A DNA stretch of 25,104 nucleotides from a virus, in the IMG/VR virus record IMGVR_UViG_3300042695_001085, positions 1 through 25,104 of that record; one strand, given 5' to 3'. Made by a program: the position numbers and the translations under genes. Below, piece by piece: positions 1,649 to 22,744 of the stretch (the first letter of the stretch is position 1; each line of letters begins with the position of its first letter). The notes beneath the pieces were generated by a model. That model saw nothing but the letters and a program-made list of their open reading frames with translations. It did not search any database and was not told the origin of the DNA.

Positions 1649-1657
1649 ATATTTATA
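1649..1657 (+). promoter_or_regulatory. ATATTTATA element, putative phage (late?) promoter
   Basis: A perfect ATATTTATA lies 22 bases before the ATG at 1680, in a 56-base gap. The same element with similar spacing precedes six other genes in the window (ending in A or T). On the complementary strand it reads TATAAATAT, the T4-type late core, so orientation is uncertain. Confidence 0.5.
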
Positions 1658-1679
1658 TACGAACAAAAAAATATAAAAC

Positions 1680-1931
1680 ATGTTAACACTTATTATCGTA
1701 TTAGTACTTGCAGCCGCTGTTACCTTTGTTCTAATGAGAAAAGGTAAGATTGCTGACACAAACAACAACAACATTCCTGATGCAATCGAATCAAAAATCG
1801 AAGCAGTTAAAGAAGTTGTTGCTGAAGTAAAAGAAGTTGTAAAAGAAGCTAAAGCTAAAGCTCCAAAAAAACAAGCAGCTCCAAAAGCAGCACCATCTCC
1901 AAAAACAAAAGCAACAAAGAAAACAAAATAA
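1680..1931 (+). CDS. Small single-span membrane protein with EF-hand-like loop and Lys/Ala-rich tail
   Basis: Eighty-three residues in three parts. Residues 1-19 form a hydrophobic helix (LTLIIVLVLAAAVTFVLM) followed by RKGK, a classic N-terminal membrane anchor. Next is DTNNNNIPDAIE, which matches the D-x-N-x-N-x-I-P-D-x-x-E calcium-loop pattern seen in thrombospondin-3/EF-hand-like segments. The rest is a helix of VKEVV repeats that ends in a Lys/Ala/Pro-rich tail (KAPKKQAAPKAAPSPKTKATKKTK). I cannot assign a function. The layout suggests an inner-membrane protein with a positively charged, possibly nucleic-acid- or lipid-contacting tail. A lysis accessory role is conceivable but unsupported. 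It is preceded by its own ATATTTATA element and followed after 15 bases by another small gene. Confidence 0.65.
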   Translation: MLTLIIVLVLAAAVTFVLMRKGKIADTNNNNIPDAIESKIEAVKEVVAEVKEVVKEAKAKAPKKQAAPKAAPSPKTKATKKTK

Positions 1932-1946
1932 AATATAAAGAAAGTT

Positions 1947-2417
1947 ATGGAAAAAATTAGTCTAAAATTGTTCGAGTTTTTAAATCTCGAAGCTGAAATT
2001 AATGGTTTAGTAAACCAACAAACAGGTGAAGCAATTTCTAAAGGTTTATTAGGTGAAAAACTTAATATGATCACTAAGTATTGGATCACTGATTTAAATA
2101 AAAGATTGACTTCTGAAAAAGAATCAATTAACAAACTTCGTGATGAATTAATTATGAAGTATGGTTCAACAGATGAAAGTGGTGGATACCAACTATCTCC
2201 ATCTATCAAGGTAGAAGATGGTGTCGACGAAGAAGGTAACCCAAAATTCAAAGCAGAACCAAACAAAGATTTCTTTGAATTTCAAAAGGAATACAACGAT
2301 TTGTTAAATCAAGAAAGAGAATTAGAGTATAAGCCTTTCAATATCAGCGATTTCGCTCATGTAGAAACAGAAGGCAACTACCAAACATTCTTCCAATTGA
2401 TTAAAGTTGAAGACTAA
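1947..2417 (+). CDS. Conserved-looking phage protein of unknown function (156 aa)
   Basis: Not recognised. The start ATG lies 15 bases after the previous stop, with the A-rich leader AATATAAAGAAAGTT. The protein is charged and largely helical: residues 5-65 look like amphipathic helix (LKLFEFLNLEAEINGLV, then LNKRLTSEKESINKLRDELIMKYG), followed by an acidic loop (VEDGVDEEGNPKF) and a second helix with EFQKEYNDLLNQERELEYK. It has no cysteine, membrane segment or enzyme motif. It ends just before a strong hairpin terminator at 2442, so it is the last gene of the small transcription unit that starts at 1680. A role as a small structural or host-modifying protein cannot be separated from sequence alone. 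Confidence 0.65.
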   Translation: MEKISLKLFEFLNLEAEINGLVNQQTGEAISKGLLGEKLNMITKYWITDLNKRLTSEKESINKLRDELIMKYGSTDESGGYQLSPSIKVEDGVDEEGNPKFKAEPNKDFFEFQKEYNDLLNQERELEYKPFNISDFAHVETEGNYQTFFQLIKVED

Positions 2418-2441
2418 TCCCTCTATATAAAACAAAGAAAT

Positions 2442-2466
2442 AGCCTCTAATTTAGGGGCTTTTCTT
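2442..2466 (+). terminator. Rho-independent terminator
   Basis: AGCCTCTA and TAGGGGCT pair as an 8-bp stem (one G-U pair) around an ATT loop at 2442-2460, followed by TTTTCTTT. It closes the unit ending at 2417. Confidence 0.85.
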
Positions 2467-2482
2467 TATTAAATAAAGTTAT

Positions 2483-2710: not shown

Positions 2711-2711
2711 T

Positions 2712-2975: not shown

Positions 2976-2982
2976 GGCTAGG
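2966..2982 (+). terminator. Hairpin, possible weak terminator or processing site
   Basis: CCTAGC and GCTAGG pair perfectly around ATAAG. The stop codon of the preceding gene is in the loop. No T-run follows (CGGTTACGTATTTC), so intrinsic termination is uncertain. Its position 20 bases before a promoter-like element fits a boundary. Confidence 0.4.
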
Positions 2983-3001: not shown

Positions 3002-3010
3002 ATATTTATT
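3002..3010 (+). promoter_or_regulatory. ATATTTATT element upstream of sheath gene
   Basis: A one-base variant of the recurrent ATATTTATA element, 37 bases before the sheath start codon. It follows the hairpin at 2966. Spacing is the longest of the set. Confidence 0.45.
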
Positions 3011-3047: not shown

Positions 3048-4760
3048 ATGGCAGAAAAAATTATCTCTCCTGGCGTTTTCACTCGCGAAAACGATAAGAG
3101 TTTAGTACAAAGAGGTATTCAAGAAGTTGGTGCTGCTATTGTTGGACCTACAGTTAAAGGTAATCCTTTAGCTCCAACAGTTGTAACATCATATAGTGAA
3201 TATTTATCAGTTTTTGGTGATATATTCAAGAGTGGTAGTAACTACTATGAATATTTTACTTCATTAGCTGCTAAAGAATACTTCAACAATGGTGGAAACT
3301 CATTACTAGTAACAAAAATCATCAGTGGTTCTTCTTACGATACTTACGCAAGTTCATCAATTACATCTGCAACAGCAGGTACAGCTTCTTTCGTATTAGA
3401 AGCTACTCAATGGGGTGATATCGCAAACAACAGTGGTTCTGAAGTATCTGGCGCTTTAGCAAACGGTACATTAGAGAATGTACGTTGGGAAGTGAGCAAT
3501 GTAAGTACTACAAAAGGTACATTTACATTAGTAGTTCGTCGTGGTGATGACAACACAAATAACAAAAACATTTTAGAAACTTTCTCAAACTTATCATTAG
3601 ACCCATCTCAACCAAACTACATTTCTCGTGTAGTAGGTGATGCAAAACCTGTTTACAACGCTTCAAAAGGCTTAGTAGAAATTTCAGGTAGCTTCCAAGG
3701 TGGTTCTTCATATGTTCGTGTTAAGTCTGTAACTAATACTATCGATTCAATCGATAATAACGGAAACTACAAAGCTACTACATATAGTGGATCTTTACCA
3801 ACAGTTGCTAGTGGTTCATTCAGTGGTGGTGTTGCTTCAACAAACAGATCTGCTGTATTCTTTGAATCAAATGATACTGCAGCTACAAACTGTCAAGGAT
3901 TTGCTGCTGCTGATTATACAGCTGCTTTAAGTTTATTATCAAATAAAGATGATTATAGCTTTAACTTATTATTAGTTCCTGGTGTAACATTAGGTACTGG
4001 TGCTTTAAGTTCATTAGCAGATGATGTAATTGGAGTATGTGAAGGTAGAGGTGATTCAATGGCAATTATCGATACTACAGCATATGGTGCTAACGTAGCT
4101 GCTGCTGTTACAGCTTCTGCTGCTAATGGTTCAAGTTACGCAGCTGCTTACTACCCTTGGGTACAATTATTCAGTTCTAACTTAGGTAAGGCTGTATGGT
4201 GTCCTCCATCAGTAGTAATGGGTGGTGTATTCGCATTTAACGATCAAGTTGGTGCAGAATGGTTCGCTCCAGCAGGTTTAAATCGTGGTGGTATTGGATC
4301 AGTATTACGTGCTGAAAGAAGATTATCTCAAACAGATCGTGATGATTTATATGATACAAACATTAACCCATTAGCTTCATTCCCTGGAGAAGGTGTTGTA
4401 GCGTTTGGTCAAAAGACATTACAAAAGAAATCAACTTCATTAGATAGAATTAACGTTCGTCGTTTATTGATCACATTGAAAGGTTTCTTAGGTCAAGTTG
4501 GTCGTTCATTAGTATTTGAACAAAATACAGCAGCTACAAGAAACAGATTCATGAGCATAGCTAACCCTTACTTAGAATCAGTAGTACAACGTCAAGGTTT
4601 GTATGCTTACAAGGTAGTAATGGATGATTCAAATAACACACCAGATGTAATTGATAGAAACCAATTAGTTGGTCAAATCTATTTACAACCAAGCAAAACA
4701 GCAGAATTCATTGTGTTAGATTTCACAGTATTACCAACTGGTGCAACATTCCCAGCGTAA
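3048..4760 (+). CDS. Contractile tail sheath protein (T4 gp18 family)
   Basis: At 570 residues this is somewhat shorter than T4 gp18 (659). The N-terminus (EKIISPGVFTRENDKSLVQRG, then GAAIVGPTVKGNPLAPTVV) is the hallmark opening of phage sheath proteins: PGV followed by a first beta strand ending in GP-x-x-G. The C-terminus carries the conserved sheath core: an arginine-rich RINVRRLLITLKGFLGQVG helix, the FEQN-x-x-x-TRNRF stretch, a YLESVVQRQGLYAYKVVMDD block, and a final strand (AEFIVLDFTVLPTG). The middle third, Ser/Thr/Gly/Asn-rich, is the variable surface domain. Subunits polymerise around the tube and contract to drive it through the cell envelope. The tube gene follows 46 bases downstream with its own promoter-like element. 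Codon use (many GTA, TTA and GCT) suggests high expression. Confidence 0.96.
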   Translation: MAEKIISPGVFTRENDKSLVQRGIQEVGAAIVGPTVKGNPLAPTVVTSYSEYLSVFGDIFKSGSNYYEYFTSLAAKEYFNNGGNSLLVTKIISGSSYDTYASSSITSATAGTASFVLEATQWGDIANNSGSEVSGALANGTLENVRWEVSNVSTTKGTFTLVVRRGDDNTNNKNILETFSNLSLDPSQPNYISRVVGDAKPVYNASKGLVEISGSFQGGSSYVRVKSVTNTIDSIDNNGNYKATTYSGSLPTVASGSFSGGVASTNRSAVFFESNDTAATNCQGFAAADYTAALSLLSNKDDYSFNLLLVPGVTLGTGALSSLADDVIGVCEGRGDSMAIIDTTAYGANVAAAVTASAANGSSYAAAYYPWVQLFSSNLGKAVWCPPSVVMGGVFAFNDQVGAEWFAPAGLNRGGIGSVLRAERRLSQTDRDDLYDTNINPLASFPGEGVVAFGQKTLQKKSTSLDRINVRRLLITLKGFLGQVGRSLVFEQNTAATRNRFMSIANPYLESVVQRQGLYAYKVVMDDSNNTPDVIDRNQLVGQIYLQPSKTAEFIVLDFTVLPTGATFPA

Positions 4761-4775: not shown

Positions 4776-4784
4776 ATATTTATT
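4776..4784 (+). promoter_or_regulatory. ATATTTATT element upstream of tube gene
   Basis: Recurrent promoter-like element 22 bases before the tube ATG, the same spacing as at 1649 and 5352. The surrounding AATAATATTTATT is partly palindromic, so orientation cannot be read from it. Confidence 0.5.
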
Positions 4785-4806: not shown

Positions 4807-5292
4807 ATGGCTGTATTAGATGCAAACCAAATAATGTTCACCGCTTTCGAACCAAAGGTGCAAAACCGTTTCATCATGTATGTAGATGGTATCCCAGCAT
4901 ATTTGATCAAGAAGGCAGCGTCTCCTCAGTTTGACGCAGGTGAAATTGTACTTGACCATATCAACGTTTACCGTAAAGTAAAAGGTAAAGTTAAGTGGCA
5001 AGACATGAACTTAGAATTATATGATCCAATCACTCCAAGTGGTGCTCAGGCTGTAATGGAATGGGCTCGTTTGGCTCACGAATCAGTAACTGGCCGCGAT
5101 GGTTATTCTGATTTTTATAAAAAAGATTTAGTATTAAACGTATTAGGCCCTGTAGGTGACATCGTTAGCGAATGGGTAATCAAAGGTGCATATGTAAAAA
5201 CTGCAAACTTTGGTGAATACGATTGGTCTAGTGAAGCAGCAGTTAACTTATCAGTTACTATTGCTATGGATTATTGCGTATTGAATTTCTAA
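4807..5292 (+). CDS. Tail tube protein (T4 gp19 family)
   Basis: The length of 161 residues is close to T4 gp19 (163). It follows the sheath gene directly, the usual order in contractile phages. The sequence has the tube pattern: an N-terminal RFIMYVDGIPAYLIKKA strand pair, then ASPQFDAGEIVLDHINVYRKVKGKVKWQDMNLELYDP (the inner-barrel hairpin with the KVKGKVKW stretch), a helix (SGAQAVMEWARLAHE), YKKDLVLNVLGPVGDIVSEWVIKGAYV, and a final SVTIAMDYC strand. Hexameric rings of this protein build the DNA conduit inside the sheath. A strong terminator follows 24 bases after the stop, so tube mRNA probably ends there, which fits the large amount of this protein needed compared with the genes that follow. 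Confidence 0.95.
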   Translation: MAVLDANQIMFTAFEPKVQNRFIMYVDGIPAYLIKKAASPQFDAGEIVLDHINVYRKVKGKVKWQDMNLELYDPITPSGAQAVMEWARLAHESVTGRDGYSDFYKKDLVLNVLGPVGDIVSEWVIKGAYVKTANFGEYDWSSEAAVNLSVTIAMDYCVLNF

Positions 5293-5315: not shown

Positions 5316-5348
5316 AAGGCGTCTGCTTATGCAGACGTCTTTTTTTTT
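5316..5348 (+). terminator. Strong rho-independent terminator after tube gene
   Basis: AGGCGTCTGC and GCAGACGTCT pair over 10 bp (one G-U) around TTAT, followed by nine T residues (5340-5348). The promoter-like element ATATTTATA begins 3 bases after the T-run. Confidence 0.93.
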
Positions 5349-5351: not shown

Positions 5352-5360
5352 ATATTTATA
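5352..5360 (+). promoter_or_regulatory. ATATTTATA element upstream of gp26-like gene
   Basis: Perfect copy, 22 bases before the ATG at 5383 and 3 bases after the terminator T-run. This terminator-promoter arrangement is repeated at 6373-6406. Confidence 0.55.
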
Positions 5361-5382: not shown

Positions 5383-6135
5383 ATGAGCGAATTTAAAATG
5401 CCTACCGAAACGATTTCGTTACCTTCAAAAGGCTTATTGTATCCAAAAGAATCACCACTATCCACAGGTGAAATTGAAATGAAGTATATGACCGCTAAGG
5501 AAGAAGATATTCTTACCAACGCTAACTACATTAAAGACGGTTCTGTACTTAATCGAGTAATGCAATCATTAATTGTAACACCAGTTAGTTTTAATGATAT
5601 ATTAGTGTGTGATAAAAACGCAATTTTGTTAGGTGCTCGTATCTTGGGATACGGTGCTGAATACCCATTTAGGTATTTTAATCCATCTACAGGTGCTGAA
5701 GAAACAATAACTGTTGATTTATCAACATTAAAAGAAAAAGAAATTGATTTATCAATATTTCAAGAAGGTATAAATGAATTTACATTCACTATGCCATTAT
5801 CTGGAAATGAAGTAACATTTAAGTTATTAACACACGGTGATGAGCAAGCAATTGATGCTGAAATTAAAGGTTTAAAGAAAATTACACCACAAGGTTCATT
5901 TGAAATTACTACTCGTTTAAAATATATTATCACATCAATCAACGGTAAGAGAGAATTAGCATCAATTCGTGATTTTGTTGATAATGGTTTAACAGCAAAA
6001 GATGCTAGAGCATTGCGTGAGCATTATGCACAAATCCAACCAGACATTGACATGACTTACTATCCTGAAAATGCAGAGGAGGGCATTTCGATTCCAGTTG
6101 GAATTAACTTTTTTTGGCCTGACTCAGGGAGATAG
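5383..6135 (+). CDS. T4 gp26-like baseplate/tail-assembly chaperone protein
   Basis: The 250-residue product opens with TETISLPSKGLLYPKESPLSTGEIEMKYMTAKEEDILTN. The LPSKGLLYP motif followed by an EI-x-MKYMTAKEEDIL strand and helix is the signature of the T4 gp26/T4_baseplate family. T4 gp26 is about 208 residues. The central part (GARILGYGAEYPFRYFNPSTGAEE) fits the same fold, and the C-terminal third is helical (GLTAKDARALREHYAQIQPDI). It lies between tube and tape measure, where most tailed phages encode tail-assembly chaperones. Its last 65 coding bases overlap the next gene in the +1 frame, with a T7 run inside the overlap, so a fraction of product may extend into that frame (about 334 residues). 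The unshifted product ends six residues after the slip site (WPDSGR). Family confidence is good. The exact role, hub part or chaperone, is inferred. Confidence 0.8.
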   Translation: MSEFKMPTETISLPSKGLLYPKESPLSTGEIEMKYMTAKEEDILTNANYIKDGSVLNRVMQSLIVTPVSFNDILVCDKNAILLGARILGYGAEYPFRYFNPSTGAEETITVDLSTLKEKEIDLSIFQEGINEFTFTMPLSGNEVTFKLLTHGDEQAIDAEIKGLKKITPQGSFEITTRLKYIITSINGKRELASIRDFVDNGLTAKDARALREHYAQIQPDIDMTYYPENAEEGISIPVGINFFWPDSGR

Positions 6136-6388
6136 ACCTATAATATTCGACCAAATCCACGAAATAGTATTTCATGGAAAGGGTGGATACGATTGGAATA
6201 CGGTGTATAATATGCCAATATGGTTACGTCGATTCACGTTCCATAAGATGAAAAAATTCTATGATGATGAAAATGAAGCAATGGAAAAACAAAATCAACA
6301 GCTTGAAAATAAATCAAAGGTATCATCAAAACCACTAACACCAAACGTATCACAACCCACATATTCAACAAGAGCGCCTAAGAAATAG
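6071..6388 (+). CDS. Second tail-chaperone/gp51-like reading frame, possibly made by frameshift
   Basis: This frame is +1 relative to the upstream gene and is open from 6056; the first ATG is at 6071, giving 105 residues. The convincing protein-like part begins after the T7 run at 6109-6115: GDRPIIFDQIHEIVFHGKGGYDWNTVYNMPIWLRRFTFHKMKKFYDDE. The DW-x-x-VYNMP-[IVY]-x-LRRF stretch resembles small proteins encoded between tube and tape measure in related phages (gp51-like or the T part of G/T chaperones). The region before the T7 run (MQRRAFRFQLEL) looks like out-of-frame read-through of the upstream gene rather than protein, supporting expression as a fusion. The C-terminal 40 residues are Lys/Gln/Ser-rich and probably disordered. 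The stop codon lies in the 3' arm of the terminator at 6373. Confidence 0.7.
   Translation: MQRRAFRFQLELTFFGLTQGDRPIIFDQIHEIVFHGKGGYDWNTVYNMPIWLRRFTFHKMKKFYDDENEAMEKQNQQLENKSKVSSKPLTPNVSQPTYSTRAPKK
6109..6115 (+). other. Candidate programmed frameshift site (TTTTTTT)
   Basis: In the upstream frame this reads AAC TTT TTT TGG. A +1 (or -2) slip of tRNA-Phe keeps full Phe pairing and continues as GGC CTG ACT in the downstream frame. The zero-frame stop follows 18 bases after the run (6133-6135). Confidence 0.55.
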
Positions 6389-6397
6389 GCGCTTTTT
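6373..6397 (+). terminator. Terminator overlapping the end of the chaperone frame
   Basis: GCGCCTA and TAGGCGC pair over 7 bp, extended by an A-T pair at each end, around AGAAA, followed by TTTTT. The stop codon TAG (6386-6388) is in the 3' arm. The T-run merges directly into the ATATTTATA element at 6398. Confidence 0.88.
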
Positions 6398-6406
6398 ATA
6401 TTTATA
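6398..6406 (+). promoter_or_regulatory. ATATTTATA element upstream of tape-measure gene
   Basis: Perfect copy immediately after the terminator T-run and 17 bases before the tape-measure ATG at 6424. The following bases, CGGG, resemble the CGTAG and CGAAC that follow the copies at 9107 and 1649. Confidence 0.55.
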
Positions 6407-9106: not shown

Positions 9107-9115
9107 ATATTTATA
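9107..9115 (+). promoter_or_regulatory. ATATTTATA element upstream of 98-aa gene
   Basis: Perfect copy in the 40-base gap after the tape-measure gene, 27 bases before the ATG at 9143. It probably starts transcription of the baseplate block. Confidence 0.5.
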
Positions 9116-9454: not shown

Positions 9455-12304
9455 ATGCCTATAATCAAGCAATTAAATGCTACTAAGTTTCGTAGCTTAA
9501 AGTACGGTAATGATACCTCAGACGGAGGTAGCAGTAGGCAACCTTATATGAGGGTTGAATTAAAAGACCTTGATAAACCAATCAATAGACTTAGACTTAC
9601 TAAATTTGATGATGGTTTAGTTAGAGGTGGAGCTGTAGGAGCATTAAATGCTGCTGCGGTTGATACACTTCGTATAGGTAAATTTTTTAAGGATTTACCA
9701 AAAGGACCTTTATTCCTAATTAAACAAGTAGGCTTACAGTTATCTAATCCTAGATTAGAATTTAAAAAAGTTGGTGGTGGTGCTGTAGGTGGTATTGGAC
9801 CAACACGTCTATACAACTTAGGTATCAATACACTTGCTCAAGTTTCCCTTAATGCATTTGGTGGTCATTTAGTAAGACATGGTTTATTACCTGTAATGAA
9901 TGATAATACTAAGTACTTAAGCGTAGTAACTGATAATAACAAATTTAGTGAAGATAACTTAGACTCTCAAAACAATAGATTAGTTGGTTTGAGAAACAAA
10001 TTTGATTTAGGAGATGGTGAAGTTGAATATAGTATAACTTTAAAAGATGCTATAGCAACTAATAGACAAAACAATAGAGACGGAAGACAAGCTAACAGAG
10101 AATTTAATAGAGACGGAAGACAAGCTAACAGAAGTCTCAATAAGATGGGTAGGAAGATTAATAGAGAAGATAATAGAGATATAAGAAAATATAATAGAGG
10201 TTTTAATAGAGAAAGTAGAAAAATTAATAGACAAAATAATAGACAGGGAAGACAAAATAATAGACTTGTAAATCAAAGTACAAGAGAGGGAGCTAGAGTT
10301 GAAGGTTTTGAATTTACTCGTTCTAAATTTGAACGTACTTCGTATGAACCTACTAACCTTGAACAAACTAAATTTGAACGTTCTGTATTTCATCGCTCTA
10401 GTTTCAAAAGAAATAAAATAAACATAAGCGATTATACTATTGATAATTATCTTGGTGGACCAGGTTCAGTATATGGTATAGGAAGAACTATTATCAATAG
10501 ATATAATTTTACTGAAGATAAAATAAAGATCGATCAGGCTTTTGAAAACGCTAGGATAGAAACAATTAGAGGAAGTTTATTAGTTAACCCATTAACAGAA
10601 CAAAGTGCGTTTGCCGATGCTAGTGGTAGTTACATTACAGGGGCAACTGTTGTCCCTTTTATAGATGCAGATTGGGTATGGGATGATTGGAATAACGAAG
10701 AAGATCAATTTAAAGCACTATCAAGAAAAAAACAACCAGGGAGTTTTTACTATACAGTAGGAAATATAGCTGAAAGTAAATTACAAAAGGCTATTGGTGA
10801 TGGAAATATCAATACAAGTCCTCAAGATCCTGATTGGTCTAAGAGCACAATATATGGGTATAAAACTTTTGGAACAGGACATGTTCCTAAGATAGACCCA
10901 ACTATGCTTACGTCCCCAGAACAATTTAAAGCAATAAAACGTTCTTTACTTTGGGACTCTGAAAAGAAAATAATAAAATTTTATGACGAAGACCCAGAAT
11001 ATATTGGTGGTACAAGAGATATAGTAACATTTTCAAAATCAACCAAAAATGCAGTTGATGGATTAAAGGATGCTCAAGTTAAACGAGAAGATTTCACTAC
11101 AACTGGTAAAACTTTAGAAGAAGCCCAATCAAAAATGTCGGCTTTGACAAACCAGCCTGCTGGTTTAGATTATTTTGAAAATGATCCTGGAGGAACTACT
11201 TTAAAAGATGTAGGAGTTACAGCAAGTAAAGTAAGAAAGAAAAAAACAGTTAAAGCGTCAATTATAGATGTTAAGGGATTTGAAAGAGAAAATAAACTAG
11301 AAACCATTTACAATAATGGTGAGATGGTATCATCCCCATTAACATCAATTATTCAAGAAACTAGTGGTGATGATATTTTTAAAACTGAAGATCTTATCAT
11401 AAATAGAGACACTAAAAATTTCCGTTATCTTGCTGGTGGTAGAACAATGTCTGCTTTTGACAGATTTGATCCAGATATAATGAGTGTACATTTTAACTCT
11501 ATCGATCCATTCACTGCTACAAATTTAAGCAGTATATGGTTCTCAGCATATATGTCTGGATTTAAGTATGGTACATCAGCAACTTGGAACCCAGTAAAGT
11601 ATGTGGGTAGGTCAGAAAGTTTTTATACCTTCACCGAACATAAAAGAGATGTAAGTTTTAATTTACAAATTCCATGTTTTAATGAAACTGAATTATTAGA
11701 AAACCATTCAAAGTTAAGTGAATTACAATCAGTTTTAGCAGGAAAATATAGTCCTGATAATAGATTAGGAGGAATAATAACAGCAATAACATTAGGTAGT
11801 TACTTAGTGGGAGAACCAGGAATATTAACATCAGTTTCATTTGATATACCTGATACATCTTCTTGGGATTTGGATTTTAACTTAGCAATGTATTTAAATG
11901 CACAATTTAGCTTCATTGTTATTGGCAAAGAATTACCTGAATTTAGAAAAGGCGGGTTCTTCTTTGGCAAACCACAACCTAAATCAGAACCTCCTAAAAC
12001 AGATCCTGCCGCTAAAGAAGAGCAGAAACCAAAAACAGATGCTACTAAAGGAGACAGTGAACAGAAAATTGAAAAGAAAAAAACGGACGACGCTAAGAAA
12101 AAAGAAGAAAAACAAACAAAGATAATTGCACCAAAAGCAACATTAACAGATTCAAACGCAGGTGCTAAAAAGGAAAAACTTAGCACAGCCGTTAAATCAG
12201 GGACCTATAAACCAACAACAAATCTAGCAACAACCACTAAAAGTACCTTCCAAGGTTATGGTGGTGGAAGTTCAGGTGGAGGTGGTGCAAGTGGAGGGTG
12301 GTAA
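9455..12304 (+). CDS. Large baseplate protein with tandem 11-residue repeats, pentapeptide-like repeats and a Lys/Gly-rich tail
   Basis: The 949-residue product has four parts. (1) Residues 1-200: N-terminal region with LRLTKFDDGLVRGG and a Gly-rich segment. (2) Residues 207-283: seven tandem 11-mers of type NRxxRxxNRxx, the seventh degenerate. (3) Residues ~285-319: seven five-residue units centred on F/Y/L (SKFER, TSYEP, TNLEQ, TKFER, SVFHR, SSFKR), like pentapeptide repeats. (4) Residues ~665-825: WNPVKYVGRSESFYTFTEH, then KRDVSFNLQIPCFNETEL, a helix with LSELQSVLAGKYSPDNR, and GILTSVSFDIPDTSSWDLD. This block resembles the tube-like baseplate domains (T4 gp48/gp54-type tube cap) of other contractile phages. 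The last ~110 residues are Lys/Glu/Thr-rich and end in a Gly/Ser tail. Position after the tape measure and before LysM and hub genes supports baseplate. AGGG just abuts the ATG and is too close to act as a ribosome binding site. Confidence 0.72.
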   Translation: MPIIKQLNATKFRSLKYGNDTSDGGSSRQPYMRVELKDLDKPINRLRLTKFDDGLVRGGAVGALNAAAVDTLRIGKFFKDLPKGPLFLIKQVGLQLSNPRLEFKKVGGGAVGGIGPTRLYNLGINTLAQVSLNAFGGHLVRHGLLPVMNDNTKYLSVVTDNNKFSEDNLDSQNNRLVGLRNKFDLGDGEVEYSITLKDAIATNRQNNRDGRQANREFNRDGRQANRSLNKMGRKINREDNRDIRKYNRGFNRESRKINRQNNRQGRQNNRLVNQSTREGARVEGFEFTRSKFERTSYEPTNLEQTKFERSVFHRSSFKRNKINISDYTIDNYLGGPGSVYGIGRTIINRYNFTEDKIKIDQAFENARIETIRGSLLVNPLTEQSAFADASGSYITGATVVPFIDADWVWDDWNNEEDQFKALSRKKQPGSFYYTVGNIAESKLQKAIGDGNINTSPQDPDWSKSTIYGYKTFGTGHVPKIDPTMLTSPEQFKAIKRSLLWDSEKKIIKFYDEDPEYIGGTRDIVTFSKSTKNAVDGLKDAQVKREDFTTTGKTLEEAQSKMSALTNQPAGLDYFENDPGGTTLKDVGVTASKVRKKKTVKASIIDVKGFERENKLETIYNNGEMVSSPLTSIIQETSGDDIFKTEDLIINRDTKNFRYLAGGRTMSAFDRFDPDIMSVHFNSIDPFTATNLSSIWFSAYMSGFKYGTSATWNPVKYVGRSESFYTFTEHKRDVSFNLQIPCFNETELLENHSKLSELQSVLAGKYSPDNRLGGIITAITLGSYLVGEPGILTSVSFDIPDTSSWDLDFNLAMYLNAQFSFIVIGKELPEFRKGGFFFGKPQPKSEPPKTDPAAKEEQKPKTDATKGDSEQKIEKKKTDDAKKKEEKQTKIIAPKATLTDSNAGAKKEKLSTAVKSGTYKPTTNLATTTKSTFQGYGGGSSGGGGASGGW
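10073..10303 (+). repeat. Seven tandem 33-base units encoding 11-residue NRxxRxxNRxx repeats
   Basis: Units start at 10073, 10106, 10139, 10172, 10205, 10238 and 10271. They encode NRDGRQANREF, NRDGRQANRSL, NKMGRKINRED, NRDIRKYNRGF, NRESRKINRQN and NRQGRQNNRLV, plus the degenerate NQSTREGARVE. A partial unit (NRQN) precedes at 10061. The first two units are nearly identical in DNA; the others have diverged. Confidence 0.93.
10307..10411 (+). repeat. Seven pentapeptide-like repeats (15 bases each)
   Basis: FEFTR, SKFER, TSYEP, TNLEQ, TKFER, SVFHR, SSFKR: aromatic or Leu at the centre, small Ser/Thr at -2, charged at +1/+2. NKINI, SDYTI and DNYLG may continue the register to 10456. Consistent with a short beta-helix. 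Confidence 0.65.
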
Positions 12305-12624: not shown

Positions 12625-15600
12625 ATGTCTATATTTAAAGAATCATTTCCATCGCATATTAAAAAGCAACTCTTAAAAAGAGGAGAGGCTATTGTTAGAC
12701 GTAACTTAACAGACTTAACCTACTATAATGGTAGAAAAGCCTGGTTGAGAATGTCTTCATCAGTTGACGTTAAAGAGGATGGTGGCTCTTTAGCTAAAAA
12801 TTATGTTTTATTAGGAGGTGCTTTATATAATGGTAAACTAAGACATGGTGTTGGGAGTGGGCCTGAAAACGCATATGCATTACAAACACCAAGCGGACAA
12901 ACACACAAATATGGTATTAGACCAATGCCTGGTATTACTGGAGTTGATATTAAATCAAAAGGTGCTTACGGTTCATTAAGAGAAGTAACAATAAATTTTA
13001 ACTGTTGGGATATTACTCAATTAGAAGATTTAGAATTACTTTACATGAGACCAGGATACTCTGTATTATTAGAATGGGGATGGATTCCTTACCTTAATAA
13101 TGATGGGGCTTTAGTATCAACACCTGCAACGTTTGATATATTTGATAGTAATTTAAAAGGAAAAGATTACCAAAACGTATTCCAGAAGTTATTCAAGATG
13201 GAAGAAGAAGCACAAGGTAATTATGGTGGATTCCTAGGTATTATTAAAAACTATAAATGGTCAGCTAGACCAGATGGAGGATATGATTGTAGTACAACTT
13301 TAATTTCTATTGGTGAAATGATAGAATCATTAAAGATTAACTATACAGCAGCTAATTTATCACTTACTACATTACAAACTGTAGGATACCTAAAAATGGT
13401 AGACTCAGCTAATCCTGATTTAGATGATGATGCTTTAGAATTATTTTATGGACGAAATTTCTTATCAGGATTGATATATGAATTATGGGAATCTATAGAT
13501 TCAAAAAACAATTGTGCAATTTTCACTAAAAAAGATAGCTTTGGAGTAGAATACGATATGCTTGCAATGGATATTGAGTTCGAAAATGATACAGAAGATG
13601 ATGAAGAATTGGGATGGGCTTTCGATAATCAAAAATATATTACATTAGAGTCTTTATGTAGATTGATAAATCGTCACTTAACAGTAGGTATAGTAAGTGA
13701 AGATGGAAATAAACCTATTATAGGAGTGTCAGTTAGTGATAGAAAATACCCATCTGGTAATAATATAGATTTATTAAATGCAACAACTCCTTACTTATTG
13801 AGTTTATGTCACCCACTACAAATGTCAGTTGACCCATCAGTATGTTTAATTAGAAACGATGTTTGGGGAGCTTTTAAATTACCTGAAGAAATAACTACCC
13901 CACCTGCCCCATCATCTCCCCCATCAAATACAGGAGACAAAGGAAAACAGGTTGATGCTAATATTACATTTAATGGAGTTGCTACACCTTGTGAAACAGC
14001 AGCCAAAGCAACCTTAGATGCCATCATACCTCAAGTAACTGCTATTAATGGTGATGATACATTCACGATGGATACTCTTAAAAAGTATTTTAATGCTTGT
14101 AGTGCTGCTGGTGTTAACGCAGATAAAGCTGCTGAAGAATTAGCTAGACAATTTGAACTTAATGCAACTGTCACTCCAGGTGTGTTATACGGTACAAATA
14201 TAAGTACAAACGGTAATTCAAGCGATAATCTTTTTACCTTCTTAGATGACCAACTTTATGAATCAGAAATAAAGGAATGCTCCCCAGCATTATCAAATTT
14301 GAAAGGAAAAAATATGGGGATAATACAAGCAAAGATAGATGTAATCACAGCTCAGAAGGCAGCTGCTAAAAAAGCAGAGGAATTAAAAGAAAAACAAGAA
14401 GATGCTGCAGAAGATCTTAGTTGGATGAGCACATTAAAACCATTCTCAGTGTCTGATGCTAATGGAACGGCAGATCCTGCTTGTAAATCTGGTTTAGGAC
14501 AAATAGGAAATATATATCTTAATTTAAGATATTTAATGAAATCATGTAAAGATCCTGGATTAGAGGAAAGTGATAAAACAGGTAAGAATACTATTAATTT
14601 ATATGATTTTTTAAAGAAAATATTAACGGATATTGCTACAGCAACAGGTAATGTAAATAACTTTGATATTCATGTTGATCCTATAGATAGTGTAGCTAGA
14701 ATTATAGATATTAACTTTGTAGACACTCAATCGAAAAAAGACGCCTACAACAATTCATTCACATTCTACTCAGAAGATGGAACACCAACAGGAAAATATA
14801 ATGGTTTAAAATCTACAGTAAGAAATTATTCATTAGAATCACAAATATTCTCTGAACAATCTTCTATAGTAGCAATAGGTGCTCAAACAGGTGGTGGTCA
14901 ATTAGGTTTAGAAAACGATACTATGGTTGGGTTCAACTATGGTGTAAAAGATCGTCTTAAACCTAAAATAAATGCCATGAATACAACAGGAACTGATGAC
15001 AGTGCTTCAGTTCAATTGGAAAATTTATTAACTAACCTCACCCCAATATATGAGTTTATTGGTGAAATGGCAGGTAATGGAGTATTTACTGAAAGTGATT
15101 ATGATATATCTAAGGCAAGTAATTATGAGGGCGCTCTTAGAGATGTTATAGCAATTTTTAGAGCTTTATCTAAAAATCCAATTAAATTTAAAGCAATTAT
15201 CCCTACAAAATTATCATTAGAAATAGATGGTATATCAAATCTAATCATAGGCCATATGTTTAATATCCACCCAGATTTACTTCCTAAAGGATATAAAACT
15301 GAAGGTGATACTGAGGCTGGTAGAAGACTAGGATATATTTTAACAGGAATAGGACATACCGTTAGTGATAATGGTTGGACCACTAAATTAGAAGGCCAAA
15401 CAGTTATATTAGAAGAACCAGATGGTGAGGAAAAAAGTTTATTCGATATTACTTTAAGTAAAACTGGAAAAGTACAAAAAGCTTCCGCTAAAATCACAAC
15501 AGATGAAAAAGGAAACTTAATTAAAACGGACGTAACATTAAGCCAGGCTCAAATGCAGGAAATCGAACAATGGATTAATTTTGGTGGATTTAAAAAGTTC

Positions 15601-16059
15601 TATACAAATGGATATTTTAACCCTAATACTCTTTTAGATGCCGCAACTGCTGCTAAATCATGTGGGTTTAAAATAGCAGTGACATCAGGGATAAGAGGTG
15701 GAGAAAATCAAGGATATCATAGAACTGGTTGGGCTCTTGATATATCTGGGTTTGATGGTCTTTACTCAACAGCTTCAACAAATACTGGGTTGGAAAAAAA
15801 CCATGCAAAATATGCAGCAAATGGAGATAAACTTGCTTCTGCTCTCATAAAAATGGGTTACAAGCATTTATTTGAATCTGGAAAAGATGGTACATCAGCA
15901 GAAGTATATCAAACAAAAACATTTATATGGCGATCAGGAGGTCACTTTAACCATATTCATATGAGTAACTCATTTGAAGCCCCAGGTTGGAAAAACCCAA
16001 ATAAAGTAGGAAAGTATGCAGTACAACAAAAGAAATATAATCCAAATAAGTATAAATAA
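12625..16059 (+). CDS. Baseplate hub protein with C-terminal M15-type peptidoglycan peptidase
   Basis: The 1144-residue product has an N-terminal hub region (residues ~1-320) with KYGIRPMPGITGVDIKSKGAYGSLREVTI and LEDLELLYMRPGYSVLLEWGW, a block typical of large tail-hub proteins in T4-like phages. The centre is Ala/Lys helix plus beta-rich domains. After a short Lys/Asp-rich linker, the last ~165 residues have the M15 (D-Ala-D-Ala carboxypeptidase / L-Ala-D-Glu endopeptidase) zinc site: H1032-x-x-G-x-A-x-D1039 and H1107-x-x-H1110-x-H1112. Exo/endopeptidase specificity cannot be read from sequence. I infer a tail-tip lysin that opens peptidoglycan as the tube passes, replacing the lysozyme of T4 gp5. 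The stop codon shares one base with the next ATG. Confidence 0.85.
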   Translation: MSIFKESFPSHIKKQLLKRGEAIVRRNLTDLTYYNGRKAWLRMSSSVDVKEDGGSLAKNYVLLGGALYNGKLRHGVGSGPENAYALQTPSGQTHKYGIRPMPGITGVDIKSKGAYGSLREVTINFNCWDITQLEDLELLYMRPGYSVLLEWGWIPYLNNDGALVSTPATFDIFDSNLKGKDYQNVFQKLFKMEEEAQGNYGGFLGIIKNYKWSARPDGGYDCSTTLISIGEMIESLKINYTAANLSLTTLQTVGYLKMVDSANPDLDDDALELFYGRNFLSGLIYELWESIDSKNNCAIFTKKDSFGVEYDMLAMDIEFENDTEDDEELGWAFDNQKYITLESLCRLINRHLTVGIVSEDGNKPIIGVSVSDRKYPSGNNIDLLNATTPYLLSLCHPLQMSVDPSVCLIRNDVWGAFKLPEEITTPPAPSSPPSNTGDKGKQVDANITFNGVATPCETAAKATLDAIIPQVTAINGDDTFTMDTLKKYFNACSAAGVNADKAAEELARQFELNATVTPGVLYGTNISTNGNSSDNLFTFLDDQLYESEIKECSPALSNLKGKNMGIIQAKIDVITAQKAAAKKAEELKEKQEDAAEDLSWMSTLKPFSVSDANGTADPACKSGLGQIGNIYLNLRYLMKSCKDPGLEESDKTGKNTINLYDFLKKILTDIATATGNVNNFDIHVDPIDSVARIIDINFVDTQSKKDAYNNSFTFYSEDGTPTGKYNGLKSTVRNYSLESQIFSEQSSIVAIGAQTGGGQLGLENDTMVGFNYGVKDRLKPKINAMNTTGTDDSASVQLENLLTNLTPIYEFIGEMAGNGVFTESDYDISKASNYEGALRDVIAIFRALSKNPIKFKAIIPTKLSLEIDGISNLIIGHMFNIHPDLLPKGYKTEGDTEAGRRLGYILTGIGHTVSDNGWTTKLEGQTVILEEPDGEEKSLFDITLSKTGKVQKASAKITTDEKGNLIKTDVTLSQAQMQEIEQWINFGGFKKFYTNGYFNPNTLLDAATAAKSCGFKIAVTSGIRGGENQGYHRTGWALDISGFDGLYSTASTNTGLEKNHAKYAANGDKLASALIKMGYKHLFESGKDGTSAEVYQTKTFIWRSGGHFNHIHMSNSFEAPGWKNPNKVGKYAVQQKKYNPNKYK

Positions 16060-16571: not shown

Positions 16572-17858
16572 ATGTTTTATATTATTGAGAAATCATCTCA
16601 ACTATCACAATTATCATTCGAGGATTGTTTCGTTAGGTTTATTCCTAATAGTAACAGTTTTCATCCTGCACTTACTGAGTTAAGTCTAATTTATGTTAGA
16701 CCTGTTCATAGTAAGAAGGGATACATACTGTGTTTAAATCATAACGAATCATTATCATTATCCAAAGATAAAGTATTTGATTGGTTAGATGATCTAGGTA
16801 AAATATGGGTATTAGATAAAAAACAAGCATTACATTGGTACCCAAATTCAGATAAATTATTTGATGTTAATTTTATAGAGCATGTTGACATAAAGGCGTT
16901 AGATAATGCCTGTATAAGCTACTACTACAGCTTACATGGTGCGTTGTCTAACGTCAACTGTTTAATTCCTATTAGCAAACATTATGAAATGTGTGAGGCT
17001 GTATATGAATTAGCATGGCCTATTATTAAACAATATTCATTAAGCGACACAACGTTTCAATTTAATAATTTTCGCACGTCAAATGTGTTTTATAATATTG
17101 AAAAAAACGGCATTAAGGTCGATAAAAACTGCTTTATTGATTATTATCGAGGTAAGTTGCACCACCCAGAATTCAATTTAAATCGCAGTAAAATATACAC
17201 TCAATATAATTTATATACAACAACATCACGCCCATCTAATACATTTAACAGCGTGAATTTCGCCGCATTGCATAAAGATGATGGCGAACGCATGTGTTAT
17301 AGACCGGAAAACGACAAATTTATTGAAATTGACTTCCAGGGTTATCACCCACGATTAATTGGTGAGATGATTGGATTTGATTTTCCAAAAGATAAAAATA
17401 CATACGAGTATTTAGGTTATATATTAGGTGTATCACAACAAGAAGCAAAAGAATTAACATTCAAGCAATTGTATGGTGGTGTTTGGTCTGAATATCAGTC
17501 AAAGCCATTTTTTGAGAAAGTACTTGCATACACAGATGATATGTGGGATACGTACCAATATGGAAAATCGTTCAAGACGCAGAATAAAATATTTATACCC
17601 GACGAAAGCATAACAAAAACAAAATTATTTAATTATGTTGTGCAGAGTAATGAAACATCAACCAATGTTGAATTATTAGGGCTGGTATTTAATTTATTAG
17701 AAGGTAAAAAAACGAAATTAGTATTGTATACTTATGATGCGTTTTTATTCGATTATAGTGAAGAAGATAAAGGTTTAATTCAACAGATAGTTGATGTATT
17801 AGAATATCCTGTAACCATTAAACAAGGCCAATCGTATCACGGTTTGGAGAAATTATAA
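16572..17858 (+). CDS. Divergent family A DNA polymerase
   Basis: The 428-residue product carries the three polymerase motifs of the PolA family in order. Motif A: D254-F-Q-G-Y-H-P-R261, with TSRPSNTFNSVNFAAL before it. Motif B/O-helix: K293-x3-F297-x3-Y301-G. Motif C: Y388-D389-A. The catalytic aspartates D254 and D389 are kept. Changes from E. coli Pol I: the Glu steric-gate position (Pol I E710) is H259, the R754 position is Q289, and motif C lacks the second acidic residue. The first ~130 residues resemble a 3'-5' exonuclease domain that has lost its metal-binding Asp/Glu (FVRFIPNSNSFHPALTELSLIYV, then WVLDKKQALHWYP), which is inference. There is no 5'-3' exonuclease domain; a separate FEN gene follows. 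I infer the replicative polymerase, though a repair enzyme cannot be excluded. Base use is richer in CGC/GCG than the tail genes. Confidence 0.82.
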   Translation: MFYIIEKSSQLSQLSFEDCFVRFIPNSNSFHPALTELSLIYVRPVHSKKGYILCLNHNESLSLSKDKVFDWLDDLGKIWVLDKKQALHWYPNSDKLFDVNFIEHVDIKALDNACISYYYSLHGALSNVNCLIPISKHYEMCEAVYELAWPIIKQYSLSDTTFQFNNFRTSNVFYNIEKNGIKVDKNCFIDYYRGKLHHPEFNLNRSKIYTQYNLYTTTSRPSNTFNSVNFAALHKDDGERMCYRPENDKFIEIDFQGYHPRLIGEMIGFDFPKDKNTYEYLGYILGVSQQEAKELTFKQLYGGVWSEYQSKPFFEKVLAYTDDMWDTYQYGKSFKTQNKIFIPDESITKTKLFNYVVQSNETSTNVELLGLVFNLLEGKKTKLVLYTYDAFLFDYSEEDKGLIQQIVDVLEYPVTIKQGQSYHGLEKL

Positions 17859-17866
17859 ATATTTAT
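17855..17866 (+). promoter_or_regulatory. ATAAATATTTAT palindrome at the polymerase/next-gene junction
   Basis: Perfect 12-base palindrome that contains both TATAAATA (17854-17861) and ATATTTATT (17859-17867). It overlaps the polymerase stop and abuts the next ATG at 17868, so the ATATTTATT copy would leave no leader. It could be a promoter core for either orientation or chance in AT-rich DNA. Confidence 0.3.
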
Positions 17867-17867
17867 T

Positions 17868-18284
17868 ATGGAACAACTAAACGAATTAGACTTGAACAAA
17901 TTATTCTGTACATTTACAACTCCACTGGATTTGGAAAATACAGTTAACACAATCAATCGCCGTTACGCTATATTATTCAATAAGATATTTATTCTTGAAT
18001 CTCCACAAAGCGAAGAATTGATGTGTACTTACAATATTGACTCGGGCAATGTACAAGATGCACCGATGGCCAATACTATCTTATTACATAGAAAGAAAGA
18101 ATCAAACACATTATATACCATTAATGCTTTAAATACTTTAATTAAGGATTTGAATGGTGGTATATTAGATAAGAGTTTCGTTGTTAACTGGAACGATTAC
18201 AAAAATTGCATTTTACTAACAGACGGACCTAGCCTACGCAGGTTGGATACGGCTATTCATAAAATAATAGATTTTAACAAGTAA
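17868..18284 (+). CDS. Protein of unknown function between polymerase and ssDNA-binding genes (138 aa)
   Basis: Not recognised. It starts 9 bases after the polymerase stop. The product mixes strands and helices: FTTPLDLENTVNTINRRYAILFNKIFILE, then ANTILLHRKKESNTLYTINALNTLIKDLNGG and SFVVNWNDYKNCILLTDGPSLRRLDTAIHKII. The TLYTINALNTLI-x-x-LNGG segment and the VNWNDYKNCILLT strand look like a compact alpha/beta domain with no catalytic motif I can name. Its position inside the replication block suggests a replication, recombination or regulatory accessory, but nothing in the sequence proves it. A 98-base gap with regulatory structure separates it from the single-strand binding protein gene. Confidence 0.65.
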   Translation: MEQLNELDLNKLFCTFTTPLDLENTVNTINRRYAILFNKIFILESPQSEELMCTYNIDSGNVQDAPMANTILLHRKKESNTLYTINALNTLIKDLNGGILDKSFVVNWNDYKNCILLTDGPSLRRLDTAIHKIIDFNK

Positions 18285-20313: not shown

Positions 20314-21328
20314 ATACTTTGAACTTCTTTCAAGTATTCAACCTGACACTCGTACATCACTAGATTCGATTTTAATAATAGACGGCTTAAATACTTTTTT
20401 AAGAGCGTTTACTATGATAAACCACATAAATCCAAATGGCCACCACATTGGTGGCCTAACTGGATTTTTAAAGTCAGTAGGTTATGCAATTAAAATGCTT
20501 AACCCAACTAAAGTAGTAATTGTATTTGATGGAGTTGGTGGTTCGAATGCTAGAAGGAACTTATACCCAGAATATAAGGCAAATCGTCACGTTAATCGTA
20601 TGACGAACTACTCAATTTTCTCTTCAAAGGAAGAAGAAACAGAGAGTATAAACAATCAGATGGCAAGATTAATTCAGTATCTTAAATGCCTACCGATTAC
20701 TGTTATTAGTATTGATGGTTTAGAAGCAGATGATATTATTGGTTATTTAACTAATAAGTTTCAAGTTTATGATGAAACTAGAAGTGTAACTATTATGTCT
20801 GCTGATAAAGACTTCTTACAGCTAATATCACCTAAAGTACAAGTATATTCTCCTGTTAAAAAGAAAATATATAAACCAAAGGATGTATTGGAGGAATTTG
20901 GGGTTAGTAGTTATAATTTCCTTAACTATAAAATCCTATTAGGAGATAATTCAGATAATGTGCCTGGGATTACAGGTTTAGGACCTAAAAAGTTAACTAA
21001 ATTATTTCCAGAATTAGCATCAGATAACCCAGTAACATTAGATGAAATTATTGAGAGATCTGCAGATAAAATAGAAGAGAATAAATTATATTTCTCTGTA
21101 GTAGAAAGAAGACACCAATTAGCAATTAATTATCAATTGATGTCTTTGAATGGAAGTTTCTTATCACCGGAAAACAAACAGTTGGTAAAAGACGCATTTA
21201 ATAATTCGTATGAGTTAAATAAGTATATCTTTCATCAAATATATGTAAATGATAAGTTAGGAGAATCAATTCCGAATGTAGATAGTTGGTTACAAGAAAC
21301 ATTTGGTTATCTAAATTCTCTAAATTAA
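20303..21328 (+). CDS. rnh: 5'-3' exonuclease / RNase H (FEN family)
   Basis: The 341-residue product (T4 RNase H 305) shows the FEN metal-binding acidic set: D27 (ILIIDGLNTF), D76 (VVIVFDGVGG), E141, D143, D144 (GLEADDIIGYL), D168 and D170 (SADKDFLQL), and D215 and D218 (LGDNSDNVPGI). The arginine-rich helical arch follows D76 (ARRNLYPEYKANR), and a helix-hairpin-helix-type stretch (GITGLGPKKLTKLF) comes after D218. The protein removes RNA primers and flaps from lagging-strand fragments and complements the polymerase, which has no 5'-3' exonuclease domain. The ATG lies within the end of uvsX in a different frame (11-base overlap), and the helicase gene follows after 16 bases, so they form one operon. 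Confidence 0.95.
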   Translation: MQNKYFELLSSIQPDTRTSLDSILIIDGLNTFLRAFTMINHINPNGHHIGGLTGFLKSVGYAIKMLNPTKVVIVFDGVGGSNARRNLYPEYKANRHVNRMTNYSIFSSKEEETESINNQMARLIQYLKCLPITVISIDGLEADDIIGYLTNKFQVYDETRSVTIMSADKDFLQLISPKVQVYSPVKKKIYKPKDVLEEFGVSSYNFLNYKILLGDNSDNVPGITGLGPKKLTKLFPELASDNPVTLDEIIERSADKIEENKLYFSVVERRHQLAINYQLMSLNGSFLSPENKQLVKDAFNNSYELNKYIFHQIYVNDKLGESIPNVDSWLQETFGYLNSLN

Positions 21329-21344
21329 ATTTATAAAATAAGTT

Positions 21345-22727
21345 ATGACAACATTAAGCAAATTAAATCAATATGGCCCGGGTTTCCAAACCAAAGTAAT
21401 TGGAGCACTATTAACACAGAAAAACTTCTTAGTTAATGTATCCGATTCACTTGAAAAGGAATACTTTGAGAATCAGGCTAATCAATGGATTATAAAAGAG
21501 GTACAACAATATTTCTCCAAGTACCATACAGTTCCTACAATGGAGGTGTTATCAACTGAAGTAAAAAAGATTGATAACGACGTTTTAAAAATCGCTATTA
21601 CTGAAGGATTAAGAGAAGCCTATAAAGAATCACAATCAAATGATTTGGAATGGGTGGAAAGCGAATTTACTAATTTCTGTAAAAACCAACAAGTAAAGAA
21701 AGCAATTATGACATCAGTCGATTTGCTTGGTATGGGTGATTATGATAGTATTAAAACACTAATGAATAATGCCTTGAAAGCTGGTGAAGATAAAAATATT
21801 GGTCATGAATATGATAAAGATATTGAGTCAAGATACAGAATGGATGATAGAAACGCAGTACCATTTCCTTGGAAAGTATTTAATGATTTGACTCAAGGTG
21901 GTATGGGTAAAGGTGATTTAGTATTAGTATTTGGTAATCCTGGGGGTGGTAAATCATGGGCTGTAATTGATATGGGTGCTTATGCTGCTGCATTAGGTTA
22001 TAATGTAGTGCACTATTCACTTGAATTAGCTGAAGGATATGTAGGTAAAAGATATGATGCTGTGTTTACAGGGCTACCTGTTGATACATTAGATAAACAT
22101 AGAGCCAAAGTTGAAGAAACAATTGGTAAAGTAAAGGGTAAAGTTGTAATTAAAGAATACCCACCTAAACGAGCATCATTCGACACTATCCAGGCTCACT
22201 TACAACAATTAGAACATCAACACGACTTTAAACCAGATCTAATTATTATCGATTATCTCGATTATGTTAAGAGTTCATCTCGTAATAGAAGTGGAGAGCG
22301 TAAAGAGGAAATTGATGATGTTTATGTTGGAGCTAAAGCATTGGCCAAAGAATTAGGAATACCAGTTATATCGCCTTCACAAGCAAATAGAGGTGCTGCT
22401 AAGAGTAATATCATTGAAGGTGATAATGCAGCAGGTTCATATGAAAAAATTATGATTGGTGATATTATTTTATCTTTAGCTCGTGGGAGAAAGGATAAAG
22501 TAAACGGAACAGGACGTTGGCACGTTATGAAAAATAGATATGGTGCTGATGGATTAACATTTGGTTCCAAAATAGATACGTCAAACGGAAAAATAGATAT
22601 ATACGAAACGCCATTAGAAGATGATGATGACGATGACTCTAAACCTGTAAACCAATACAGTAGTGTCAACAATGATGATAGAGACTATCTTCAACAGAAG
22701 TTTTTTGAACTTAGTAAAGGCCAATAG
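21345..22727 (+). CDS. DnaB-type replicative helicase (gp41-like)
   Basis: The 460-residue product (T4 gp41 475) has a helical N-terminal domain (residues ~1-160), then the RecA-like ATPase core: Walker A GNPGGGKS at 197-204, followed by a WAVIDMGAYAAALGY helix; YSLELAEGYVGKRYD with the Glu of the H1a motif; Walker B LIIIDYLDYVKSS (D303); SPSQANRGAAKS (H3-like); and a final KNRYGADGLTFGSKID. This is the SF4 hexameric helicase that unwinds the fork. The C-terminus is acidic with a DDDDDD run near residue 427 and a Ser/Asn-rich end, a likely contact surface for primase. No primase domain is fused and none is seen nearby. It is the last gene of the replication unit. Confidence 0.93.
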   Translation: MTTLSKLNQYGPGFQTKVIGALLTQKNFLVNVSDSLEKEYFENQANQWIIKEVQQYFSKYHTVPTMEVLSTEVKKIDNDVLKIAITEGLREAYKESQSNDLEWVESEFTNFCKNQQVKKAIMTSVDLLGMGDYDSIKTLMNNALKAGEDKNIGHEYDKDIESRYRMDDRNAVPFPWKVFNDLTQGGMGKGDLVLVFGNPGGGKSWAVIDMGAYAAALGYNVVHYSLELAEGYVGKRYDAVFTGLPVDTLDKHRAKVEETIGKVKGKVVIKEYPPKRASFDTIQAHLQQLEHQHDFKPDLIIIDYLDYVKSSSRNRSGERKEEIDDVYVGAKALAKELGIPVISPSQANRGAAKSNIIEGDNAAGSYEKIMIGDIILSLARGRKDKVNGTGRWHVMKNRYGADGLTFGSKIDTSNGKIDIYETPLEDDDDDDSKPVNQYSSVNNDDRDYLQQKFFELSKGQ

Positions 22728-22735
22728 TATATACT

Positions 22736-22744
22736 ATATTTATA
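22736..22744 (+). promoter_or_regulatory. ATATTTATA element upstream of thioredoxin gene
   Basis: Perfect copy 19 bases before the thioredoxin ATG at 22764, in a 36-base gap. It probably starts the thioredoxin-reductase operon. Confidence 0.5.

Follow-up and report, generated by a model that had tools for sequence, protein, structure and literature searches.

An AT-rich element upstream of virion genes is very probably the late promoter element of a clade of distant T4-like phages

A recurrent element precedes seven genes of the window

The IMG/VR virus record IMGVR_UViG_3300042695_001085, analyzed over its whole length of 25,104 bases and hereafter called the window, has a guanine-cytosine content of ~33% and carries its genes almost all on the + strand. 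These encode tail sheath, tail tube and baseplate proteins, then a single-stranded DNA-binding protein (SSB), a UvsX-like recombinase, an exonuclease, a DnaB-like helicase and a ribonucleotide reductase. Upstream of seven genes lies a short element, ATATTTAT(A/T) with core TATTTATA, which we interpret as very probably the late promoter element of a clade of distant T4-like phages. Two isolates are relatives by sheath and helicase, Flavobacterium phage immuto (~52% identity) and Microcystis phage Mel-JY01, and both carry the element together with a protein family named here after immuto gp153. Further related genomes are designated G001, G002 and so on; the sheath of G003 is 93% identical to that of the window.

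An initial annotation, made from the letters alone, had listed seven copies, and all seven are present: ATATTTATA at 1649, 5352, 6398, 9107 and 22736 and ATATTTATT at 3002 and 4776. Its spacing of 17-37 bases, with three copies at exactly 22, also stands, the distances from the end of the 9-mer to the start codon being 22, 37, 22, 22, 17, 27 and 19 bases. The copies and the features around them are as follows.

1649..1657, + strand: element ATATTTATA, 22 nucleotides (nt) before the open reading frame (ORF) at 1680; ATATTTAT kept in 7/7 distinct related upstreams
3002..3010, + strand: element ATATTTATT, 37 nt before the tail sheath gene at 3048; ATATTTAT kept in 39/39, strict pattern (see below) in 35/39
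3048..4760, + strand: tail sheath gene (phrog_23, E value 1.4e-67)
4776..4784, + strand: element ATATTTATT, 22 nt before the tail tube gene at 4807; ATATTTAT kept in 41/41
4807..5292, + strand: tail tube gene (phrog_4542, E value 1.2e-23)
5316..5341, + strand: terminator-like hairpin with a T run, closely preceding the element at 5352
5352..5360, + strand: element ATATTTATA, 22 nt before the baseplate-hub-like gene at 5383; kept in 33/34
6370..6396, + strand: terminator-like hairpin, immediately 5' of the element at 6398
6398..6406, + strand: element ATATTTATA, 17 nt before the 892-amino-acid ORF at 6424 (tape-measure position); kept in 5/5
9107..9115, + strand: element ATATTTATA, 27 nt before the ORF at 9143; kept in 13/13
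17859..17867, + strand: eighth intergenic copy, ATATTTATT, abutting the ATG of the ORF at 17868; found at the same place in G002
22736..22744, + strand: element ATATTTATA, 19 nt before the thioredoxin-like gene at 22764, which precedes nrdJ; similar element in G001 and G002

As the initial annotation had noticed, two copies lie directly 3' of terminators, the terminator-like hairpins at 5316-5341 and 6370-6396. This supports the role in transcription start that it proposed. The copy at 17859..17867 is doubtful as a promoter of ORF 17868, and four further + strand copies of ATATTTAT lie within genes (1260, 3200, 17589 and 17985). The thioredoxin-like and ribonucleotide reductase genes (22736-24886) are not virion genes and also stand behind a copy, a hint of a regulon wider than the structural genes.

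The signal is positional and strand specific

With genes called by a simple longest-ORF script that accepts only ATG starts, the signal is one of position, not of abundance over the whole window, where the motif shows no enrichment (28 copies vs. 39.6 expected, allowing one mismatch and counting both strands). Eight of the ten + strand copies of ATATTTATW fall within 746 intergenic bases, which would be expected to hold 0.13 (Markov-1) or 0.20 (Markov-2), an excess with a Poisson P of 2e-12 or 5e-11, respectively. The related genomes, turned so that their genes read +, have 4-7% of their sequence as intergenic DNA, and forward ATATTTATA copies are intergenic in 15/16 cases in immuto, 22/25 in G002, 15/16 in G004 and 19/27 in G001. 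Summed over 15 related records, some of them near-duplicates, ATATTTATA occurs 198 times on the major strand and 11 times on the other. A control with the reversed sequence was void, ATATTTATA reading identically backwards.

The element is conserved upstream of the same genes in relatives

We defined a footprint as the 70 nt before the start codons of window genes, collected it from 80 sheath loci and counted distinct upstreams; no locus was available for thioredoxin, SSB, UvsX, helicase or nrdJ. For six genes with the element, ATATTTAT is present in 138 of 139 distinct upstreams and absent from the other strand (0). Five control genes without the element have it in 1 of 99, and dinucleotide shuffles of the footprint upstreams yield 0.1-2.0 per gene. 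The strict pattern [ACT]TATTTAT[AT] is found before the sheath in 35/39, the tube in 40/40 and the gp26-like (baseplate-hub-like) gene in 33/34, the four sheath misses being ATATTTATC. The median distance from the element to the start codon is 20 nt, and across relatives it ranges from 34 to 46 nt for the sheath and from 18 to 47 nt for the tube, with the element retained.

Motif searches without a preset pattern returned TATATTTAt in G001, G002 and G005. Restricted to virion upstreams, they gave TATTTATA preceded by A (51%) or C (43%) in immuto, and ATATTTAT(A/T) in G001, G002, G004 and G005 combined. Over all upstreams, the top motif in immuto and G004 was the early-type one described below, and G006 gave no clear motif. 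The T before ATATTTAT is present at only ~50%, and no position upstream of the element is conserved, nor is there a -33/-35 partner. Downstream, counting 12 bases on from the element's first base, 114 sites favor a purine (A 73%, G 18%), with G almost absent just before that position. This purine spot, 12-13 bases from the first A, is a candidate transcription start. The related genomes are not independent (the window, G002 and G003 are close, as are G005 and G007), and the 114-site set, like a larger one of 168 sites, includes such redundancy.

The element runs with the genes and is not a mirrored T4 promoter

The late promoter core of T4 is TATAAATA, and the T4 late system uses gp55, gp33 and gp45. 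The initial annotation had considered a T4-late-like promoter in reverse orientation, read by a mirrored factor. The same script that recovers TATAAATA 17 times with and 5 times against the genes of T4 finds it 6 times with and 22 against in immuto, and 2 with and 16 against in G001. All ten relatives and the window have TATAAATA opposite to the T4 direction, and TATTTATA or ATATTTAT points with the genes. Since TATTTATA and TATAAATA, read in the same direction, differ at just 2/8 positions, no reversed orientation is needed, and we rejected the mirrored T4 promoter. Because ATATTTATA is the same backwards, reversal and complementation are indistinguishable by eye. Nor does TATAAATA occur in the window solely as the reverse complement of the copies, as had been claimed: 2/8 occurrences are on the + strand (16051 and 17854), and one of the six on the minus strand, at 17590, belongs to an in-gene copy. 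On the numbering of the T4 late core (T-13 A-12; available text of PMC2988020), TATTTATA would retain A-12 and A-8 and have different bases at -10 and -9; bases -12, -9 and -8 sit in pockets of gp55 (available text of PMC7892883).

The element marks virion genes, and a second motif marks another gene class

A gene was classed as virion by its position in one of immuto's two structural stretches or by a blastp match to a gene there, and the immuto classes comprise genes with an upstream gap of at least 25 nt. In immuto, the late element precedes 17/22 virion genes vs. 11/59 others (p 2e-6). A second motif, TTG followed after ~20 nt by TAnnTTTA and then G or C, is found in upstreams of immuto, G004, G002 and G001, in regions of small, mostly unannotated genes (~60-77 kb in immuto). 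It resembles a host primary-sigma promoter in immuto and its near kin. In immuto this host-type motif stands before 0/22 virion and 25/59 other genes, and it shares an upstream with the late element in just 2 of 81 cases. We call the genes behind it early on account of the motif's likeness to the flavobacterial primary-sigma promoter, so their timing is itself inferred.

Both patterns were written after viewing immuto and then fixed for two unviewed genomes. The fixed late pattern precedes 12/14 virion vs. 13/66 other genes in G016 (p 5e-6) and 11/15 vs. 18/94 in G017 (p 6e-5); for the fixed host-type pattern the counts are 0/14 vs. 16/66 (p 0.06) and 0/15 vs. 27/94 (p 0.02), respectively. In genomes already inspected, the late element is likewise concentrated before virion genes (10/13 vs. 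13/69 in G001, 9/10 vs. 17/55 in G002, 6/6 vs. 14/64 in G004 and 5/5 vs. 12/38 in G005); G022 had no virion gene to compare. A TTG 16-26 nt upstream is present at 5/27 late vs. 25/25 early sites in immuto, 3/25 vs. 16/16 in G016 and 4/29 vs. 26/28 in G017, and it separates the classes less in G002. Late sites of six genomes have this TTG partner in 3-6 of 21-29 cases each. As a separate observation, many early-region genes of immuto and G002 have a leader that ends in AAAGGTT or AAAAGTT directly before the ATG, possibly a translation signal.

The element recurs in a phage of a second host phylum

Mel-JY01 infects a cyanobacterium (Microcystis), and all 15 occurrences of ATATTTAT in its upstream regions point with the genes (0 against). 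Examples precede the tail tube gene (34510) and the genes at 17435 (downstream of the terminase gene), 26740 (downstream of the capsid gene) and 31641 (upstream of the sheath gene); the distance to the ATG is mostly 32-40 nt, with a GGAG-like stretch in between. A motif search over ten of its virion upstreams returned a Shine-Dalgarno-like motif, though 5/10 hold ATATTTAT. The primary sigma factors of the Flavobacterium and cyanobacterial phyla read different promoters. An element common to phages of both is more simply explained by a phage-coded reader, and a phage factor thus probably reads it. The upstream regions of the outgroup RM378 contain no ATATTTAT in either direction.

gp153 is a candidate sigma factor

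The initial annotation had suggested a search for a gp55- or gp33-like factor, and in the relatives a candidate sigma-like protein was found. The gp55 profile phrog_234 has one weak match in immuto, which is gp153 (E value 0.008), and none in five other records. Profile phrog_12791, the second sigma-type profile of T4, has no match in 6/6 records. The gp33 profile phrog_254 recovers its target in T4, the positive control, and matches 0/7 relatives, although a diverged gp33 would be missed. The gp45 profile phrog_223, also found in T4, matches 1/7 (G002, E value 1.2e-9). That match is a sliding-clamp-like gene at G002:41864-42481 on the minus strand; phrog_223 was not found in immuto, G001, G004, G016, G017 or Mel-JY01.

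Homologues of gp153 are common in IMG/VR (at least 80 loci) and occur in 7 of 20 records searched (G001, G003, G004, G016, G017, G018 and G022), as well as in Mel-JY01 and the jumbo phage LR756508; in annotated records they are hypothetical and unnamed. Among 27 family members, 15 touch Pfam Sigma70_r2 (best E value 0.01). When the gp153 model was realigned, all of the 50 matches listed were sigma factors or polymerase holoenzymes by title, and T4 gp55 (chain 7d7c_F) was among the best (Z 10.0, 128/137 residues, root-mean-square deviation 4.7). For a helical protein this Z is suggestive of a sigma factor, and the predicted fold of gp153 is that of sigma region 2. The alignment profile A1 gave only two weak matches against PDB sequences, both unrelated to sigma factors. 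The immuto gene adjoins one annotated as a RecN-like ATPase, near baseplate genes; in T4, gene 55 lies near 46/47.

While T4 gp55 ends in a short clamp-binding tail, gp153 ends, by eye, in a C-terminal domain of ~98 residues, which is conserved (alignment A2) and modeled with a predicted local distance difference test score (pLDDT) of 88.8. Its model has no clear fold match in the PDB; one of the two best matches, at Z 5.0, is the AlpA-loading complex chain 7xya_G, a likeness that is a lead only. On these models and matches, we consider gp153 a probable sigma factor of the late element.

Other genes of the window

Two long ORFs have no PHROG match. The first (949 amino acids, 9455-12304) has a long degenerate Asn-Arg-rich repeat stretch and then RTSFER-like repeats; the second (1,144 amino acids, 12625-16059) has a C-terminal part that by eye looks like an M15-type peptidase, and the immuto gene at its place is annotated as a carboxypeptidase. 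In the 41.6 kb of LR756508 sampled, gaps between ORFs are unusually long under the standard code, perhaps owing to a recoded stop codon.

Discussion

From the element, its positions, its conservation and the gene classes it marks, we infer a promoter role, a timing, a sigma factor and a start site. Early in infection, host polymerase with a host primary-type sigma would act at TTG, ~20 nt, TAnnTTTA. Late in infection, the same host core with a phage-coded, gp153-type sigma region-2 protein would open the DNA at the -10-like TATTTATA without a -35 contact, and transcription would start close to the purine-rich spot, a few bases further on. As in T4, early and late infection would thus use different sigma factors. 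The idea of a distinct phage promoter class with T4-late likeness, raised by the initial annotation, is supported. With T4-family late promoters the element shares a single -10-like AT octamer, the lack of a -35 box, the virion genes served and a phage protein for which a sigma region-2 fold is predicted, and it differs in its core, TATTTATA here vs. TATAAATA in T4. Cores do vary within the T4 family, Aeh1 having a/gC at -13/-12 while those of S-PM2, KVP40 and 44RR closely resemble that of T4 (available text of PMC2988020). A more specific version, in which a re-specified core TATTTATA is read by a gp55-like sigma whose own C-terminal domain replaces the clamp-binding tail, with late transcription perhaps independent of gp33 and gp45 in hosts of two phyla, is a tentative proposal that we rate at somewhat below even chances.

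Several results weigh against the late promoter and its proposed sigma. An element equally frequent inside genes and on both strands, which the initial annotation held to speak against its proposal, is not what we find for ATATTTATA, but the looser HTATTTATW lacks strand bias in some of 12 further records (15:18 in G021, 16:16 in G022, 6:7 in G023 and 11:14 in G024). In G004 upstream regions it occurs 20 times forward vs. 15 reverse, the reverse matches probably arising because A-rich leaders contain AATAAATA. Virion genes of G006 are not significantly richer in the element (5/8 vs. 6/17, p 0.39), and some non-virion genes carry it, such as thioredoxin/nrdJ. The early pattern postdates the inspection of immuto, and its TTG is not clear-cut in G001 (6/15) or G004 (5/15). 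As for gp153, it was not found in 13 of the 20 records, the window included (records of 25-133 kb), and the outgroup LR756508 has a homologue (40% identity) and no upstream ATATTTAT in the 41.6 kb sampled. Only 11/27 family members have a match to phrog_234, and a weak one (best E value 0.026); the AlphaFold model of gp153 is middling (pLDDT 75, predicted template modeling score 0.47). Foldseek with this model gave no match at E <= 0.001 in the PDB, the best (0.19) being a sigma-H entry, and hhalign of gp153 with T4 gp55 is not significant (probability 0.9%, E value 0.061).

Host polymerase might instead read the element unaided, as a variant of the Bacteroidota primary-sigma promoter with its -7 box TAnnTTTG. 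The flavobacterial promoter is described as TTTG / TAHHTTTG (available text of PMC6847099 and PMC9723704); TATATTTA fits TAnnTTTG except at the last position, the core TAnnTTT is shared, and the early-region promoters of these phages, which share TAnnTTTA, look to be of this type. In Flavobacterium johnsoniae, moreover, the -33 box is weak and the start lies 4-5 nt away (available text of PMC6847099), close to the purine-rich spot seen here. The late elements differ from such promoters, however, in lacking a -33 box, in having A in place of the final G, and in a loose leading T, the T preceding ATATTTAT being present at only ~50%. The near-invariant A-11 slot is C in 43% of immuto virion upstreams, and most late sites are without TTG, unlike the early sites of immuto, G016 and G017. 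As the element also splits virion from other genes and recurs in a cyanobacterial phage, we consider this explanation unlikely.

Two readings would place the element in RNA, and to each we give very little credence. A translation signal in the 5' leader would suit its closeness to start codons (median 20 nt) in hosts without Shine-Dalgarno leaders. The element is, however, rare where gaps are short: gaps below 10 nt vs. at least 25 nt give 1/104 vs. 25/81 in immuto, 2/119 vs. 22/82 in G001 and 0/66 vs. 17/43 in G005, upstreams of the first kind being coding and so different in composition. Its spacing to the ATG drifts among relatives, unlike that of a ribosome-positioning signal, and in Mel-JY01 many copies are 32-40 nt away from the ATG, separated from it by GGAG-like sequence. 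A processing site for an AU-rich endonuclease at transcript heads would account for an AU-rich, strand-specific element at gene starts, and the same ambiguity attends primer extension in T4 (available text of PMC2988020). Yet two copies come right after terminator-like hairpins, where transcription has to begin anew, and the element coincides with the host-type motif in so few immuto upstreams (2/81).

T4 late transcription is the textbook case of sigma replacement, and the late promoter element proposed here is most likely a new version of this classic late-gene switch. The late-gene switch of the abundant freshwater and marine distant T4-like phages had been open. A full-text literature search, in which subscription journals are poorly covered, returned no description of immuto or Mel-JY01 promoters, and core genes of T4 transcription regulation were not detected in Far-T4 phages (available text of PMC4360716). 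If true, a re-specified core read by a gp55-like sigma would fill that gap. The conserved element and its candidate sigma are directly testable in a cultured Flavobacterium phage, and the element would give an annotation rule for late operons in thousands of uncultured contigs. It would also offer a natural experiment on how the core recognition of a phage sigma shifts as the phage lineage passes from one host phylum to another.

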